Shown: piece after piece, positions 37,319 to 44,556 of the stretch
Layout: the number at the start of each line of letters is the position of its first letter
Position numbering within the stretch: the first letter of the stretch is position 1
Source of the DNA: Flavobacteriales bacterium
GTDB lineage: Bacteria > Bacteroidota > Bacteroidia > Flavobacteriales_F > PHOS-HE28
DNA: 54,665 nt
NCBI GenBank assembly: GCA_018057455.1
Contig: JAGPDT010000016.1
Location: 4,179 to 58,843 of the forward strand
Direction of reading: 5' to 3'
Notes under the pieces: model-generated
Seen by the model: the letters and a program-made list of their open reading frames with translations, nothing else
Told to the model about the DNA's origin: nothing
Databases searched by the model: none
Translations under genes and position numbers: made by a program

Positions 37319-38851
37319 CTACTCAAACCGGATCGCCTTCGCCGGCGCTATCCGCGAAACGTACATGCTGGGCACCACCAAGGCCAATACGCATACTGCC
37401 AGCACCCCGATGTTCAACGCGGCGATGGGCCAGAAGGAGAGGTCCACAGGCACCTGGTCCACGTAGTAGCTTTCAACCGGCAGGCGCACGATGCCCAGGT
37501 GCTGCTGCAACAAGGCCAGGCCGATGCCCAGTACGTCGCCCAGCACGATCCCGATGCCCAGGATGTACGCCGCATCGATCAGGAAGATCCGCCGGATGGC
37601 CCGGTTGCCCGTGCCCAGGGCCTTCAGCACACCGATCATGCGCGTGCGTTCCAGGATGATGATCAGCAGCGCCGAGGTCATGTTGATGATGGCCACGATC
37701 ACCATCAGCAGGATCACTACCACCACGTTGGTGTCCAGTAGTTCCAGCCAGGAGAAGATCTCGGGGAATTTTTCCCGGGCGGTCACCGTGCGTTGGCCCA
37801 CCCCCAGGTATTCGCTGTAGATCAGGTCGTCCATGGCCAGCAGGTCCGCCTTCGGTTGCAGCAGCACCTCGAAGCCCCCGCAGTAGTCCTGGTAGCTGCC
37901 GCCGCTGCCCCGCCGCGAGATTTGTGCCGTGGAAGGGGTGAGGCAGCCGACGTCCGTAACCGATGGATCCCGCTGGATCGTTATCCATGCCGTGTCCGGT
38001 AGAGTGCCGCCATGGTCGTGTACCACCAGCATCAAGGTGGTGTCTTTCCGGGTGCAGATCGCGTGCGGTCCTTTGCCCTGCAACGGGGTGCCCGGCCAGG
38101 AGTAGCTGAAGTCGCCGTCGCCGCCGAAGCCCAGGCCTTCGATGGTGATGCCCTCCTGGCCGGACAACTCGGGGGTGGCGATCTCCGCCTGCAAGCCCCA
38201 CTGCGCGAAGCGTTGGATGTGCCCAAGGTCCACGTACACCACCTTGTGGTCCACTTTCTCAAGGCCGGTCTCGTAGATGCCCGTTACCCGGTATTTGCGC
38301 GGCCGGATGTCCTCCCGGCCTTTGATCAGGTACACGGTGAGCTCATCGCCGGTACCACGCTGCAAGCGCCGCGACAGCCAACTGCTGATGAGCACCTGCG
38401 GCCGCACGCTATCGCCGATGGCCAGCACCGTGCCGGCCACCAGATGCCCTTGCAGGAAGCTCCAATCGTGGTCACCGCCTACACCCTTTACCACCACGCC
38501 TTGGATGTCCCGGTCGGTTTCCACAAGGCCCGGCTGCAGGGCGAACACTTGGATGTGCTCAACGCCCGGCACCGTGTCCAGCCAAGGGTAGAAGGGCTGC
38601 TGGATCCGGATCCGTTCGGAGGCATTGGCATCGGCCTGCGTCAACGGCACAATCTCGATGTGTGCCCCGGCTCCCGTTACTTTGGCCCGGACTTCGCCTT
38701 GGAAGCCCGTGCTGATGCCCACCGTGAGGATCATGACCGCCATGCCGATCACAATGCCGAGTACAGCTATGACCACGATCGGGCGCGAAAGCCGGTCCTG
38801 CCGCTCGCTGTCGCTGAGGATGCGGCGCGCGATGAAATGTGCAAAGCCCAT
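37319..38851 (-). CDS. FtsX-like ABC transporter permease (LolC/LolE type)
   Basis: A 510-residue permease: one N-terminal membrane helix (IVVIAVLGIVIGMAVMILTV), a large periplasmic MacB-type core domain (~55-380) and three C-terminal helices with FtsX sequence (LLMVIVAIINMTSALLIIIL, then RTRMIGVLKALGTGNRAIRR). This matches the LolC/E-type subunits that release lipoproteins or similar substrates from the inner membrane. The ATPase subunit is not in the window. The start codon (CAT on the plus strand at 38849-38851) shares two bases with the start of the divergent NamZ-type gene. Confidence 0.86.
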   Translation of the reverse strand: MGFAHFIARRILSDSERQDRLSRPIVVIAVLGIVIGMAVMILTVGISTGFQGEVRAKVTGAGAHIEIVPLTQADANASERIRIQQPFYPWLDTVPGVEHIQVFALQPGLVETDRDIQGVVVKGVGGDHDWSFLQGHLVAGTVLAIGDSVRPQVLISSWLSRRLQRGTGDELTVYLIKGREDIRPRKYRVTGIYETGLEKVDHKVVYVDLGHIQRFAQWGLQAEIATPELSGQEGITIEGLGFGGDGDFSYSWPGTPLQGKGPHAICTRKDTTLMLVVHDHGGTLPDTAWITIQRDPSVTDVGCLTPSTAQISRRGSGGSYQDYCGGFEVLLQPKADLLAMDDLIYSEYLGVGQRTVTAREKFPEIFSWLELLDTNVVVVILLMVIVAIINMTSALLIIILERTRMIGVLKALGTGNRAIRRIFLIDAAYILGIGIVLGDVLGIGLALLQQHLGIVRLPVESYYVDQVPVDLSFWPIAALNIGVLAVCVLALVVPSMYVSRIAPAKAIRFE

Positions 38852-40088
38852 GGGGATCGCGGCGAAGATAGCCCGTGCCGTACGGCAGGCAGGAGTGCTC
38901 CTCGCCATCGCAGGGTGCCATGGCCCGGCACCCGCACAGGTGCCCGCGGCACACGCCAGCGCCGTGGTGGGCTATGCCAATGCCCGCGTACGTACAGGAG
39001 CCGAGCGCACCGATCGGTATGTCTCCGTGCTTCTGGGCCAACGCGTGGCCGTGGTCACCAACCAGACCGGTATGATCGGTCCGGTACACCTGGTGGATTC
39101 GCTCCTTTCCATCGGGGTGGACATCAAGAAGGTCTTCGCCCCGGAACACGGATTCCGTGGCGACGCCAGCGCCGGTGAACAGGTGGCCGATGAACGCGAC
39201 AAGCGCACCGGCCTGCCACTGGTCTCTCTCTACGGCAAGAACAAAAAGCCCAGCCCCGCCCAGCTTGCCGATGTGGACTTCCTGCTCTTCGACATCCAGG
39301 ACGTGGGCGTGCGCTTCTACACCTACATCAGCACGTTGCACTACGTGATGGAGGCCGCCGCGGAGAACAACAAGCCGCTCTTCGTGCTGGACCGGCCCAA
39401 CCCCAACGGCTTCTATGTGGACGGCCCCGTGCTGGATACCGCCTTCCGGTCCTTTGTGGGCATGCACCCCGTACCGCTGGTCCACGGCATGACCATCGGT
39501 GAGTACGCCCAAATGATCAACGGCCAGCATTGGCTGAAGGACGGCGTGCAGTGCAACCTCACCGTGATCCCCTGCACCGGATACGACCATTCAACCTACT
39601 ATGAACTGCCGGTCAGGCCCTCGCCCAACCTGCCCAACATGGCCGCCGTGTACCTGTACCCCGCACTGGGCCTTTTCGAGGGCACCATCGTCAGCGTGGG
39701 CCGTGGTACGGACAAGCCCTTCCAGTGCATCGGCTTCCCCGGCTGCACCTTGGGCGACTACAGCTTCATCCCGCGCTCCACGCCCGGGGCCGTGGACCCG
39801 CCCCACCAAGGCCAGGTCTGCACCGGTCTGGACCTTTCATCCTTCGGCGAGATCTACTCCCGCGCAGATCCCCGCCTCAGCCTCCAATGGCTCATCGGCA
39901 TGTACCAAGCCTGCCCGGACAGGGCCGTGTTCTTCAACAGCTTCTTCAGCAAGCTCGCGGGCAGTGCCTCACTGCGCCACGCGGTCGAACAGGGAAGTAC
40001 CGAAGACGAGATCCGCGCAAGCTGGCAGCAGGACCTGGAGGCGTTCAAGGAGATGCGCACGCCATACCTCCTCTACCCCGTACCCTGA
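38850..40088 (+). CDS. DUF1343 lipoprotein, NamZ-type exo-beta-N-acetylmuramidase
   Basis: A 412-residue DUF1343 protein. ATG 38850 gives a good lipoprotein signal (basic start, VLLAIAGC with Cys23); ATG 38832 upstream is also in frame. Family sequences include 'RVAVVTNQTGMIGPVHLVDS', 'FAPEHGFRGDASAGE', 'FDIQDVGVRFYTYISTLHYV' and 'DRPNPNGFYVDGPVL'. Members studied in Bacteroidota and Bacillus (NamZ) remove terminal MurNAc from peptidoglycan fragments during cell-wall recycling. It should be periplasmic and membrane-attached. It is divergent from the permease with overlapping start codons. Confidence 0.85.
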   Translation: MGIAAKIARAVRQAGVLLAIAGCHGPAPAQVPAAHASAVVGYANARVRTGAERTDRYVSVLLGQRVAVVTNQTGMIGPVHLVDSLLSIGVDIKKVFAPEHGFRGDASAGEQVADERDKRTGLPLVSLYGKNKKPSPAQLADVDFLLFDIQDVGVRFYTYISTLHYVMEAAAENNKPLFVLDRPNPNGFYVDGPVLDTAFRSFVGMHPVPLVHGMTIGEYAQMINGQHWLKDGVQCNLTVIPCTGYDHSTYYELPVRPSPNLPNMAAVYLYPALGLFEGTIVSVGRGTDKPFQCIGFPGCTLGDYSFIPRSTPGAVDPPHQGQVCTGLDLSSFGEIYSRADPRLSLQWLIGMYQACPDRAVFFNSFFSKLAGSASLRHAVEQGSTEDEIRASWQQDLEAFKEMRTPYLLYPVP

Positions 40089-40268
40089 AGGCTGCAGCCC
40101 GGAGGCGGCCGAAGGGCCTGCCAACTCCCTTTCACCACCATGGCCCCGGGCGCGTCGATGGGGCCCATTCGGGGGGATCATCCTGGCCACTGCCATGGGT
40201 CCTGTGTGCGGCTTCGGAGGCTCCCATCTAGGCTCGGAGTTCGCCTGTACCGAACCGGTACAACAAGC

Positions 40269-40276
40269 TAAATTTG
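40269..40276 (+). promoter_or_regulatory. -7 promoter element upstream of the SprB-repeat gene
   Basis: TAAATTTG matches TAnnTTTG within an unusually A+T-rich stretch (about 40260-40330) in a GC-rich genome. A good TTTG at -33 is missing. A second related sequence, TTTATTTG, lies near 40311. Transcripts from here would start ahead of the ATG at 40325 and the C-run. Confidence 0.5.
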
Positions 40277-40344
40277 TTCTGGAATTTTCTTGCGCAATCA
40301 TTTTTCACCTTTATTTGTATAACCATGAACGAACTATTGCTTAT

Positions 40345-40354
40345 CCCCCCCCCC
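40345..40354 (+). repeat. Homopolymeric run of ten C residues
   Basis: C10 lies seven codons after ATG 40325. Read as given, that ATG frame stops at TGA 40370-40372 after 15 codons. With nine C residues it would run straight into the 527-residue SprB-repeat frame. Such runs are typical sites of slipped-strand mispairing, and also of sequencing error. Confidence 0.8.
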
Positions 40355-40376
40355 ACCGGGACGGCCGGCTGAACCG

Positions 40377-41960
40377 TTGAACGGGCGGATCCATTCCCAT
40401 GCGCCCCGCGGTAAACAAGGGTTACTCGCTGCACTGGCCATGGTCACGTTTTCGGCAACGGCCCAAACCCCGCTAAGCGTTTCATTGCAGTCCGGCAACT
40501 TCAATGGCTACCAGGTCAAGTGCTTCGGCAAGCAGACCGGTGCCATCAATGCCACCGTTGAAGGCGGCACCGCTCCCTATCAATTCAGCTGGTCCAATGC
40601 GGCCACCACTGAGGACCTTACGGCACTGGCGGCAGGCTACTACAAGCTCACCGTCACCGATGCTGATTCCGCCGTGGCCGTAGCCGACATCACCCTCACT
40701 GAGCCTACCCCGCTGATCGTGGTTGCCGAGCCCTTCACCTGGCCCAATGGGTACAACGTAAGCTGCTTTGAGTGCTACAACGGCAGCATCGATGTTACCG
40801 TGGGCCAGGGCGTGCCGCCCTACACTTACCTCTGGAACGATAGCATCACCACCACGCAGGACCGCAGCAGCCTCGGCGCCAAGAAGCATTTTGTGGTGGT
40901 CACGGACGCCAACAACTGCTGGGTGAAATCCGAGAACGTCATCCTTACCCAGCCCGAGCGCCGTGTATGGGATCGTGGAGGTAACGCCGGTACCGATCCA
41001 GCCAACCAATATTTGGGCACGTCGGACAGCTTGGACGTGGTCTTCAAAAGCAACGGCCAGGAACGCCTCCGGCTGAAGGGCAACGGGGCGATCGGGCTCT
41101 GGGGCGCGGATACCACCATCGGGCCCTTGTACCGGGATGCGGACGGCACCTTGAAGATCGGTGGCGGCACCGATTTTTCCAATTTTCCGCCCAACAAGTG
41201 TTTCCTGCTTTCCAGCATGCCCTACTGGCAAACTAAAGGGAACAACTTTGCACAGCTCTGCCCCGATCAGGACCCCGTACTCGGCACCCTGTCCGCTAGT
41301 CCGCTCAAGGTGGTGACCAATGGCCTGGAGCGGCTGCGTTTGACCGCTGACGGCCTGTTGGGCATTGGTACCATAGCACCGGAAGCCAAGTTCCACCTGG
41401 CTGGCGATCTACTGGTGCGCGGTGGAACCGGTGGTGACATAGTGACCTCGTACAGTGCTACCACCGGTCCGGTGCTCTGGGCCCGCAACGCCCAAGCGGC
41501 ATGGGGCCTTTCCATCTCACCCGATGGCAAGGGCCATATCCTCGGCGATTGGAACGACCCCCACCCGGTGATGACCTTCGCGTACAACAAGGTGGGCATC
41601 GGTACCGAGGACATGCCCAACGACGATTACAGCCTGTTCGTAGGCAAGGGGATTCTTACGGAAAGGGTGAAGGTGGCGCTACAAAGCACTTCGGAATGGA
41701 GCGACCATGTGTTCCAACCCAACTATCGTCTTATGCCGCTCCAAGAGGTGGAGGCTTTCATCAAGGAACATGGCCACTTGCCCGGTGTGTCTTCCGCAAT
41801 GCAAATGGTGGAGCAAGGGCTGGACGTGGTGAAGACGGATGCGATGTTGATGGAGAAGATCGAGGAGATCACCTTGCACCTGATCGGCATGGAGAAGCGC
41901 GTAGTGGAGTTGGAAAGAGAGAATGCCACACTTCGCTCACGGATCATCGCTGGACAATGA
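40377..41960 (+). CDS. SprB-repeat surface protein with C-terminal chaperone-like coiled-coil region
   Basis: A 527-residue frame whose only in-frame start near the signal peptide is TTG 40377; ATG 40325 is out of frame by one base because of the C10 run. Signal peptide: residues ~10-30 (GLLAALAMVTFSATAQ). Two SprB-type Ig-like repeats follow (~34-110 and ~112-193, each with a Cys and 'APYQFSW' or 'PPYTYLW'). The C-terminal ~150 residues carry 'YRLMPLQEVEAFIKEHGHLP' and a terminal coiled coil, a tail-fibre-like module common in secreted Bacteroidota proteins. There is no T9SS sorting domain. The stop overlaps the next gene by 4 nt. Confidence 0.78.
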   Translation: MNGRIHSHAPRGKQGLLAALAMVTFSATAQTPLSVSLQSGNFNGYQVKCFGKQTGAINATVEGGTAPYQFSWSNAATTEDLTALAAGYYKLTVTDADSAVAVADITLTEPTPLIVVAEPFTWPNGYNVSCFECYNGSIDVTVGQGVPPYTYLWNDSITTTQDRSSLGAKKHFVVVTDANNCWVKSENVILTQPERRVWDRGGNAGTDPANQYLGTSDSLDVVFKSNGQERLRLKGNGAIGLWGADTTIGPLYRDADGTLKIGGGTDFSNFPPNKCFLLSSMPYWQTKGNNFAQLCPDQDPVLGTLSASPLKVVTNGLERLRLTADGLLGIGTIAPEAKFHLAGDLLVRGGTGGDIVTSYSATTGPVLWARNAQAAWGLSISPDGKGHILGDWNDPHPVMTFAYNKVGIGTEDMPNDDYSLFVGKGILTERVKVALQSTSEWSDHVFQPNYRLMPLQEVEAFIKEHGHLPGVSSAMQMVEQGLDVVKTDAMLMEKIEEITLHLIGMEKRVVELERENATLRSRIIAGQ

Positions 41961-43972
41961 CGTGCCGAATGGCCCATACAAGAGTTCTTCCAAGCTGCCT
42001 GGGAGTAGCATTCGCGTACTTTGCAACAGGCATTGCTAACGCCCAAGTAGTTCCCAATGACCCGTTGTTCTCAACCCAATACGCCCTAAGTAAGATCAAA
42101 GCCCCGGATGCATGGGCCATAACTACGGGGGGCGAAACCGTCCAGGGGGATCCGATTGTAGTGGCGGTACTTGATGATGGCTTCGATTTGTCACATCCTG
42201 ATATCTTGTTTTGGACCAATGCCGGTGAAGTTCCGGACAATGGGATTGACGATGATGGCAATGGATATGCGGATGACTACAATGGTTGGAATGCCGTCAA
42301 TGCCAACGGAACGATCCCGAACCAGAATCACGGCACCCGTGTGGCTGGAATCGTGGGTGCACTTGGGAACAACGGCATTGGTATAGCAGGTATCAATTGG
42401 AATATCCGGATACTTCCAGTTGCAGTTCAGGCTTCGAACCCAACATCGGTCATCGCCGGATACCAGTATATCCGAACCGTCAGGCAACAATACAATTCGA
42501 CGGGCGGCACTAGTGGTGCCTTTGTCGTTGTTACGAACTTATCTCAAAGTCTCGTCAATGCAGTTCCTAGTGACCATCCTGATTGGTGCTCCATTTATGA
42601 TGCGTTGGGGAGCGAAGGGGTCTTGAATGTGAACGGACCGAAGAACTGGCATCGCGAGATCGGGGTTTCTTCCGGATTTCCCCCCTCTCCGTTCAATGAC
42701 TTGCCTGCCCTTTGCAACAGCGAGTACCTGCTCGTGGTTACAAACACGGACTCAGGTGACCAACTCGTGGACCAAGGTGGTGCGGATGGAGCGCCTTGGA
42801 GCCACACGCATGTTGACCTTTCAGCTCCCGGGCATCTTGTGATGTCTACGGAACCTGGAGGCACTTATGACGATGAACAAACCGGCACTTCCTTCGCGGC
42901 ACCTGCCGTGTCCGGAGCTATTGCGTTGATGTTCTCAGCGGCCTGTGACAATTTTATTCAAGAGTATAAAACAAACCCATCCTCTTCAATCTTGTATATC
43001 AAGGAGAAATTATTAGACAATACAGACCCAGTAGGCGGGTTAATATCGCTTATTGGGCATGGGAGGTTGAACATACATCGCGCACTAACTGCAATAACAG
43101 AAGAAAAACACGAATACCTGTCGTTGACCGGAGTGGTTGTGGATTCTGACCGACATGAGGCCATAATTGCGATTGAGACGGAGGACTATGTCCATAATGT
43201 CTCAGAGCAAGTCATATGTAAAGCAGGAGGGTTTGTTGAATTTCTTCCGAATACCAGCTTGATGCCGTCGAGTGATGGGTATTTTGAGGCGATCATTGAC
43301 CCCATCGCATTTGAATGCGCAATTCCAATACAACCTCTTTATGTTTCACTTGTAGCACCTGATGTTGCGTATTGTGATGCTTGGGTCTCATGCAATGCGG
43401 CTGCATATGGAGGACTGCCACCATACACGTACAGGTGGGAAACGAGATTGACATCAAACAGCAATTGGACCGTTCATCCACAGACCAGCTATTTGTTGGT
43501 CCTCAATGGATACTACAATGACGACTTCTATGTGCGCGTGAGAGTAACGGACGATACGGGGAGCGAATCCTGGTCCGAAACCGAGCTTGTCACATGTATG
43601 GAGGGTATGATCCTGGAGGGGGAAGCTAATGACCAGGTGCGTACTTCTGCTTCGTCAGTGGATGTGAAGTCGTTTGATGTTGCGAGCGTGAAGAATGACG
43701 ATTACTTGCGAGTGATTCCCAATCCGTCAGTTCAAGGCGTTTCTCAAATCAGGTACGTATCCATAGAGAATTACGTGATGGGATTCACTATCCACGATAA
43801 TACAGGAAGGATGCTTTTCCCTTTTCAGCCCTGCTCGCGATACGAGGGTGTGGTCGGCATCGATTTTGTTGAAACCGTAGATTTGTCAAGCCTTACAGCC
43901 GGAAGCTACCTGTTGATCGTGTTGTTGGATGATGGATCGGTCCGAAGCGCACAATTCATCATCACGCCATGA
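41957..43972 (+). CDS. Secreted S8 peptidase with T9SS sorting domain
   Basis: A 671-residue subtilase. The start overlaps the previous stop as ATGA (ATG 41957; ATG 41969 also possible) and gives a signal peptide ending near GIANAQ. Triad: Asp73 (VLDDGFD), His125 (NHGTRVAG) and Ser312 (GTSFAAPAVSG). A beta-rich middle region follows, then a T9SS type A sorting domain from 'VIPNPSVQG' with 'DLSSLTAGSYLLIV' near the end. Base composition is clearly more A+T-rich than most of the window. It is co-translated with the SprB-repeat gene before and the gene after, so the three products may act together on the surface. Confidence 0.86.
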   Translation: MTCRMAHTRVLPSCLGVAFAYFATGIANAQVVPNDPLFSTQYALSKIKAPDAWAITTGGETVQGDPIVVAVLDDGFDLSHPDILFWTNAGEVPDNGIDDDGNGYADDYNGWNAVNANGTIPNQNHGTRVAGIVGALGNNGIGIAGINWNIRILPVAVQASNPTSVIAGYQYIRTVRQQYNSTGGTSGAFVVVTNLSQSLVNAVPSDHPDWCSIYDALGSEGVLNVNGPKNWHREIGVSSGFPPSPFNDLPALCNSEYLLVVTNTDSGDQLVDQGGADGAPWSHTHVDLSAPGHLVMSTEPGGTYDDEQTGTSFAAPAVSGAIALMFSAACDNFIQEYKTNPSSSILYIKEKLLDNTDPVGGLISLIGHGRLNIHRALTAITEEKHEYLSLTGVVVDSDRHEAIIAIETEDYVHNVSEQVICKAGGFVEFLPNTSLMPSSDGYFEAIIDPIAFECAIPIQPLYVSLVAPDVAYCDAWVSCNAAAYGGLPPYTYRWETRLTSNSNWTVHPQTSYLLVLNGYYNDDFYVRVRVTDDTGSESWSETELVTCMEGMILEGEANDQVRTSASSVDVKSFDVASVKNDDYLRVIPNPSVQGVSQIRYVSIENYVMGFTIHDNTGRMLFPFQPCSRYEGVVGIDFVETVDLSSLTAGSYLLIVLLDDGSVRSAQFIITP

Positions 43973-44556
43973 ATCGGAAGCTGATATGCCTGATCGCGTG
44001 GTGCCTGTGCGCATCCACGATGGTTGCTGCACAGGACGTATCCATCAGTCCCGTCCTTGAGGTGCTGGAACAGGATCATCAATCCCCTCGGATGATAGGA
44101 GCCTCGTTGTCGTTCAGGTTCCCCCTTGGAGATGAACGTTGTGTGATCGAAGTGAGACCGGATATTTCCCTAAGCCAGTGGATGGCCCTGCCTGATGCTT
44201 ACGAGAGAAGGGATAGGCGCGTAGGCGGATCAATCGCTTTCCTGCGGACGAAGACGGTCAAATCGTTCTCGGTCGACTATGGCCTTGAAGCGGGATGGCA
44301 TCGCAGAACGATATCGCTGCATCACCATTCGTCGTCCGAGGTCCTTGCGTATGGATCTTTGGGGGCCGGGTTGCAAGTGGCTTTGCGTTACTCGAGATTA
44401 CAGGTCGTTCAACCGATCGTATCCCTTTGTCCGTTCTTCGATCTTCCATTGGATACAGCGGATCCCAACCTTACCGACCTTATACCTGCCGAAGGACTCT
44501 GGGGAGTTACTGTGCGGCTGGGTGTAGTATTTGGGCTGCCAGAGACAGCTGATTAA
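43969..44556 (+). CDS. Secreted or outer-membrane protein of unknown function
   Basis: A 195-residue protein with a signal peptide (MNRKLICLIAWCLCASTMVAA). The rest alternates polar and hydrophobic residues in short strands, such as 'MIGASLSFRFPLGDERCVIE' and 'VTVRLGVVFGLPE', as in small outer-membrane barrels. I recognise no family. The start overlaps the S8 peptidase stop by 4 nt, so it belongs to the same three-gene unit. It shares the A+T-rich composition of its neighbour. Confidence 0.7.
   Translation: MNRKLICLIAWCLCASTMVAAQDVSISPVLEVLEQDHQSPRMIGASLSFRFPLGDERCVIEVRPDISLSQWMALPDAYERRDRRVGGSIAFLRTKTVKSFSVDYGLEAGWHRRTISLHHHSSSEVLAYGSLGAGLQVALRYSRLQVVQPIVSLCPFFDLPLDTADPNLTDLIPAEGLWGVTVRLGVVFGLPETAD

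Follow-up and report, generated by a model that had tools for sequence, protein, structure and literature searches.

This locus raises a simple question: does a run of ten Cs (C10), placed between an ATG and the long reading frame of a SprB-repeat protein, act as a switch for that protein? The window, by which we mean the whole stretch of 54.7 kb that was analysed, is part of contig C122 in a genome of 3.3 Mb and 130 contigs, and the C10 tract is its sole homopolymer of at least 8. As assembled, the frame of ATG 40325 opens with the peptide MNELLLI, enters the tract and is closed by TGA 40370, and the SprB-repeat frame is open from just 5' of the tract through its stop at 41958-41960. Varying the number of Cs alone in silico, we found that C9 and C12 join the ATG to the SprB-repeat frame, giving proteins of 544 and 545 aa, respectively, and that C7, C8, C10, C11 and C13 give 14-18 aa only. 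An earlier note on this DNA had predicted exactly this fusion to the 527-codon frame by one C fewer or two more, and a sequence check returned the ATG, the tract, the TGA and TTG 40377 at the coordinates it had given. Its statement that the long frame has no in-frame ATG near the signal peptide was nearly exact: the possible starts there are TTG 40377, which it had named, and an ATG at 40440 within the hydrophobic core, which it had overlooked. Translation from the fused start would be marked by peptides from MNELLLIPPPPGRPAEPLNGR.

Table 1. Features of the locus and of the related tracts discussed in the text, with the basis of each assignment.
Feature	Position	Strand	Basis
Promoter element TAAATTTG, Bacteroidota -7-like, candidate only	40269-40276	+	matches TANNTTTG
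ATG, proposed as the genuine start of the switchable gene	40325-40327	+	reading frames; layout in closest paralogues and G002:C1
C10 tract, proposed slipped-strand switch (C9/C12 ON, C10 OFF)	40345-40354	+	reading frames; family-wide enrichment
TGA closing the frame of ATG 40325 at C10 (15 codons)	40370-40372	+	frame reading
TTG, possible leaky start	40377-40379	+	between tract and hydrophobic core, the long frame has no other start-like codon; not conserved
Signal-peptide region, hydrophobic core LLAALAMVTFSA, cleavage near ATAQ	40377-40463	+	by eye
527-codon SprB-repeat protein, tail-fibre-like C-terminal helix	40377-41960	+	PF13573, E 5.7e-20, two repeats
Subtilase-family protease (S8), possible coupled gene	41957-43972	+	PF00082, E 8.5e-23
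195-aa protein with signal peptide, outer-membrane protein according to the earlier note	43969-44556	+	no Pfam family
C tracts of a second paralogous family (loci L089, L091, L097)	G000:C88:19309-19319 (C11); C94:4784-4795 (C12); C104:1495-1503 (C9)		

The same arrangement recurs in the genome itself. A paralogue on contig C22, ~73% identical over the compared region, begins with ATG-TTT-ATA-C10 and another on C120 with ATG-TAT-ATA-C7; both tracts stand shortly before the signal peptide and are out of frame with the nearest ATG, and a fourth paralogue, on C73, is cut by the contig end. The layout of ATG, short leader and C-tract is common to these closest paralogues and to a homologue from another species (G002:C1, 66% identical), which reads in frame from its ATG through its own C10. 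This in-frame copy argues that, in this clade, ATG plus tract make up the actual start. The alignment shows a tract of variable length, and TTG 40377 is not conserved throughout, being absent as such in G002:C1 and in the C120 paralogue; the earlier note had held that a fixed run length together with a conserved TTG in relatives would speak against a switch. A start at ATG 40399, combined with one extra C in CCCC 40403-40406, would yield a neat signal peptide; it was rejected because G002:C1 is in frame via the upstream ATG and the tract, and because relatives vary at the long tract.

We then surveyed 45 genomes of the genus, one per species, with the region behind the SprB repeats as query. 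The homologous loci come mostly from metagenome-assembled genomes of uncultured Flavobacteriales or Bacteroidetes, several of which presumably originate from wastewater or anammox reactors. The 5' region was readable in 53 members, in which G/C runs were counted in the 250 nt before the mature domain; genome tract counts were taken from pattern searches. Runs of G or C of at least 9 were present in 28 of the 53 members, where 0.05 would be expected, and runs of at least 7 in 34. The genus carries 624 runs of at least 9 in 161 Mb, or about 7-30 per genome, and the flanks of the same loci contain one in 192 kb. The excess is thus several hundred-fold, with the caveat that the binomial value ignores the relatedness of the members. 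Judged from these sequences, a lone C10 is unremarkable, as each genome has about 7-30 such runs, and what is remarkable is its location before the SprB-repeat family. Counting any exact simple repeat with a unit that is not a multiple of three raises the share to 37/53 members, compared to three such repeats in 178 kb of flank. The repeats comprise poly-C, poly-G, (GCACGCC)3-5, (GCACACG)4 and (AC)10, and the more distant relative L203 has (CTCTT)7 in its signal peptide; no homopolymer of at least 7 was seen in 19 of the 53, some of which are cut by a contig end or carry other repeats. Among other gene starts, used as control, 7 of 142 matched: five turned out to be family members that had escaped the filter (L189, L192, L196, L202 and L135), one (L186) lies antisense to a family tract, and L157 remains. 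In three members (L115, G9; L135, C10; L140, C13) the tract is upstream of the probable start codon and might act on the promoter. Two members from genomes counted as different species (L145 in G050, L146 in G006) have an identical stretch of family protein and identical upstream DNA, which suggests recent transfer or mixing of bins.

Do these tracts change in length? In the family, they range from C7 to C16 and from G8 to G19, and differences are also seen between close copies, although most of the genomes were assembled from metagenomes, where the lengths of single-base tracts can be erroneous. One poly-G tract, its flanks near-identical, occurs as G8 (G056), G9 (G043, G008) and G10 (G042, G008). 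The two G008 copies encode a protein that is identical over the stretch compared, in frame with G9 (L120) and out of frame with G10 (L119). Four close paralogues in G059 have C9, C10, C12 and C16, and those in the genome of the window differ as C10 and C7. In 30 members the tract separates the main frame from the nearest ATG; of these, nine are in frame and 21 out, which corresponds to the one third expected under free length drift. On a tree of the mature region, the type of tract changes at least 16 times; the tracts have therefore been repeatedly gained, lost or exchanged. Three G008 copies (L119, L120 and L152) share, as assembled, a TAA stop 51 codons into the mature region and may be decayed or further variable copies.

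Tracts in this family hence exceed chance, are placed where a change of length would shift the frame, and differ in length among near-identical copies, as contingency loci do. The phase variation proposed in the earlier note is strongly supported by the homologues, given the enrichment (28/53 and 37/53), the length differences and the share of about one third in frame. On this evidence, the C10 tract is very probably a slipped-strand contingency locus, with phase variation at the level of translation. Replication slippage would add or remove Cs between ATG 40325 and the SprB-repeat frame with its signal peptide. At C9 and C12, lengths divisible by three, the secreted protein of 544 or 545 residues would be made (ON), and at other lengths translation would stop within 14-18 codons (OFF), as predicted for the assembled copy. 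TTG 40377 could perhaps permit leaky initiation and thereby keep some expression in the OFF state. Like switches, built from different repeats, would precede most readable members of the family in the genus, and a population would therefore display changing subsets of these proteins. We infer that switching is reversible within one population, that translation begins at ATG 40325 and that the product is exposed at the surface; the benefit might be evasion of phages or grazers, or a change in adhesion.

Could the tenth C be an error of assembly or base calling instead? The true run would then be C9 and the gene permanently in frame from ATG 40325, with no switch. A change of one base does restore the frame, and homopolymer length is a common error; nevertheless, such an error leaves unexplained why 37/53 homologues, from many assemblies, have repeats at the same place, and even at C9 the tract would still be a slippage site, with the gene simply ON. 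We thus give this explanation little credence. Still less falls to translation from TTG 40377, which would put the tract in an untranslated leader and make expression independent of its length: a usable signal peptide does follow from this codon, but it is missing in the two relatives named above, an ATG upstream of the tract reads in frame in nine members, G002:C1 among them, and a neutral leader would not gather repeats at several hundred times the background. Slippage during transcription or on the ribosome, giving every cell a fixed in-frame fraction from unswitching DNA, merits hardly any belief: ten identical bases are a possible slippage site and most assembled copies are out of frame, yet C7-C16, G8-G19, 7-mers, AC and, in the distant relative, CTCTT are ill-suited to a fixed site, and the in-frame share is the random one third.

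The element TAAATTTG, which the earlier note had taken for a promoter element, is indeed present 48 nt 5' of ATG 40325. It is no better than chance, however, and not clearly conserved; since the motif TANNTTTG is at chance frequency in the window (10 occurrences, 7.8 expected), we regard it as promoter-like only.

The product is probably secreted and attached to the cell surface, as its signal peptide and SprB repeats suggest. Pfam and NCBIfam named nothing besides SprB in the 527-aa protein, and no type IX secretion sorting domain was found in it with the same two collections. An AlphaFold model of the mature protein (mean pLDDT 53.5, pTM 0.30) was too poor for a fold search; it contains confident beta domains in the SprB part only and a long C-terminal helix. 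PF13573 is common to this protein and to SprB, the gliding adhesin of Flavobacterium johnsoniae. The latter is a very large adhesin, whereas the window protein has two SprB repeats in 527 codons.

Downstream, both ATGA overlaps described in the earlier note are real: the SprB-repeat gene and the protease gene overlap at 41957-41960, and the protease gene and that of the 195-aa protein at 43969-43972. Translational coupling of the C10 switch to the protease is possible from this arrangement. The wider suggestion of coupling to both neighbours has to be confined to the window, as these neighbours are peculiar to its locus: no homologue of the protease or of the 195-aa protein was found beside any other family member fetched, and a conserved operon with a protease and an outer-membrane protein was rejected for this reason. 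The gene upstream (window 38625-40088) encodes an exo-beta-N-acetylmuramidase NamZ-type protein (PF07075, PF20732).

Slipped-strand contingency loci are a known kind of mechanism. Poly-G and poly-C contingency genes have been described in Campylobacter jejuni, Neisseria meningitidis (nalP, mspA) and Helicobacter pylori (sabA) (PMC4965091, PMC3723659, PMC2715451). As in these genes, a long G/C homopolymer lies in the 5' coding region, its length decides in which frame a surface or secreted protein is read, and there are several such genes per genome. Unlike there, one family here uses many repeat types; moreover, the pathogen genes belong to host-adapted bacteria in which switching was measured, whereas here it is deduced for uncultured Flavobacteriales. 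In Bacteroides fragilis, from the same phylum, SusC/SusD and capsule genes undergo phase variation driven by an invertase (PMC11868660, a 2025 review of phase variation, and its reference list). Both systems would amount to stochastic display of surface components, but the B. fragilis switch is a DNA inversion between inverted repeats. We found no inverted repeats at least 10 in length in 39900-40700, and phase variation by an invertible promoter, which would need such repeats as flanks, was rejected. The same review cites Bacteroides for inversion and finds repeat-mediated switching chiefly in pathogens (PMC11868660).

We searched the open-licence literature for SprB repeats together with phase variation, for switching by homopolymers in flavobacteria and for Bacteroidota with phase-variable genes, and found no report of this family. 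The systematic and repeatedly recruited use of such loci in SprB-repeat proteins of uncultured Flavobacteriales thus appears to be new. But what would a genus gain from so many tracts? We consider it rather probable that it runs a combinatorial surface display, in which each genome independently switches several fibre genes with SprB repeats, and one or more further families of secreted proteins, by repeatedly recruited simple repeats (poly-C, poly-G, 7-mer, AC). If true, such a display would mirror, in environmental bacteria, the contingency-gene sets of pathogens. Phase variation by repeat slippage is known mainly in pathogens adapted to a host, and most of the switches described in Bacteroidota are inversions; here, about two thirds of the readable members have a frame-shifting repeat at their start, and the bacteria are not known to be host-associated. 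What selects for switching, be it phages, predators or aggregation, can be tested with metagenome reads that already exist. Annotation will overlook such genes or give them a wrong start, because among assembled copies whose tract is coding, about two thirds are out of frame.

Further tracts were seen elsewhere. In the genome of the window (G000), a second paralogous family has a C tract of differing length inside its signal peptide, with the layout ATGAGAACAAAAGACCTTCTGAAACCC...GCAG-Cn-GCTGAACCCC in the member on C88; these tracts are likely further contingency loci. The one member checked had no Pfam or NCBIfam match, and neither collection named two other tract-bearing genes of the genome. 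At G000:C42:82-111 (L080, L081), near a contig end, C9 ATGGGCG C14 forms the start of a long open frame and is preceded by the element AAAATTTG; it is either another switch or an artefact of assembly. Runs of C19 and C23 at G000:C130:8466-8700 (L103, L104) stand beside a stretch of Ns and resemble scaffolding artefacts. Finally, a relative assembled in a single contig (G010:C1) has tracts of C11, C11 and C10 near 2658807, 3053466 and 3598864 (L231, L232 and L233), each at the start of a secreted-looking protein that does not belong to the SprB-repeat family.
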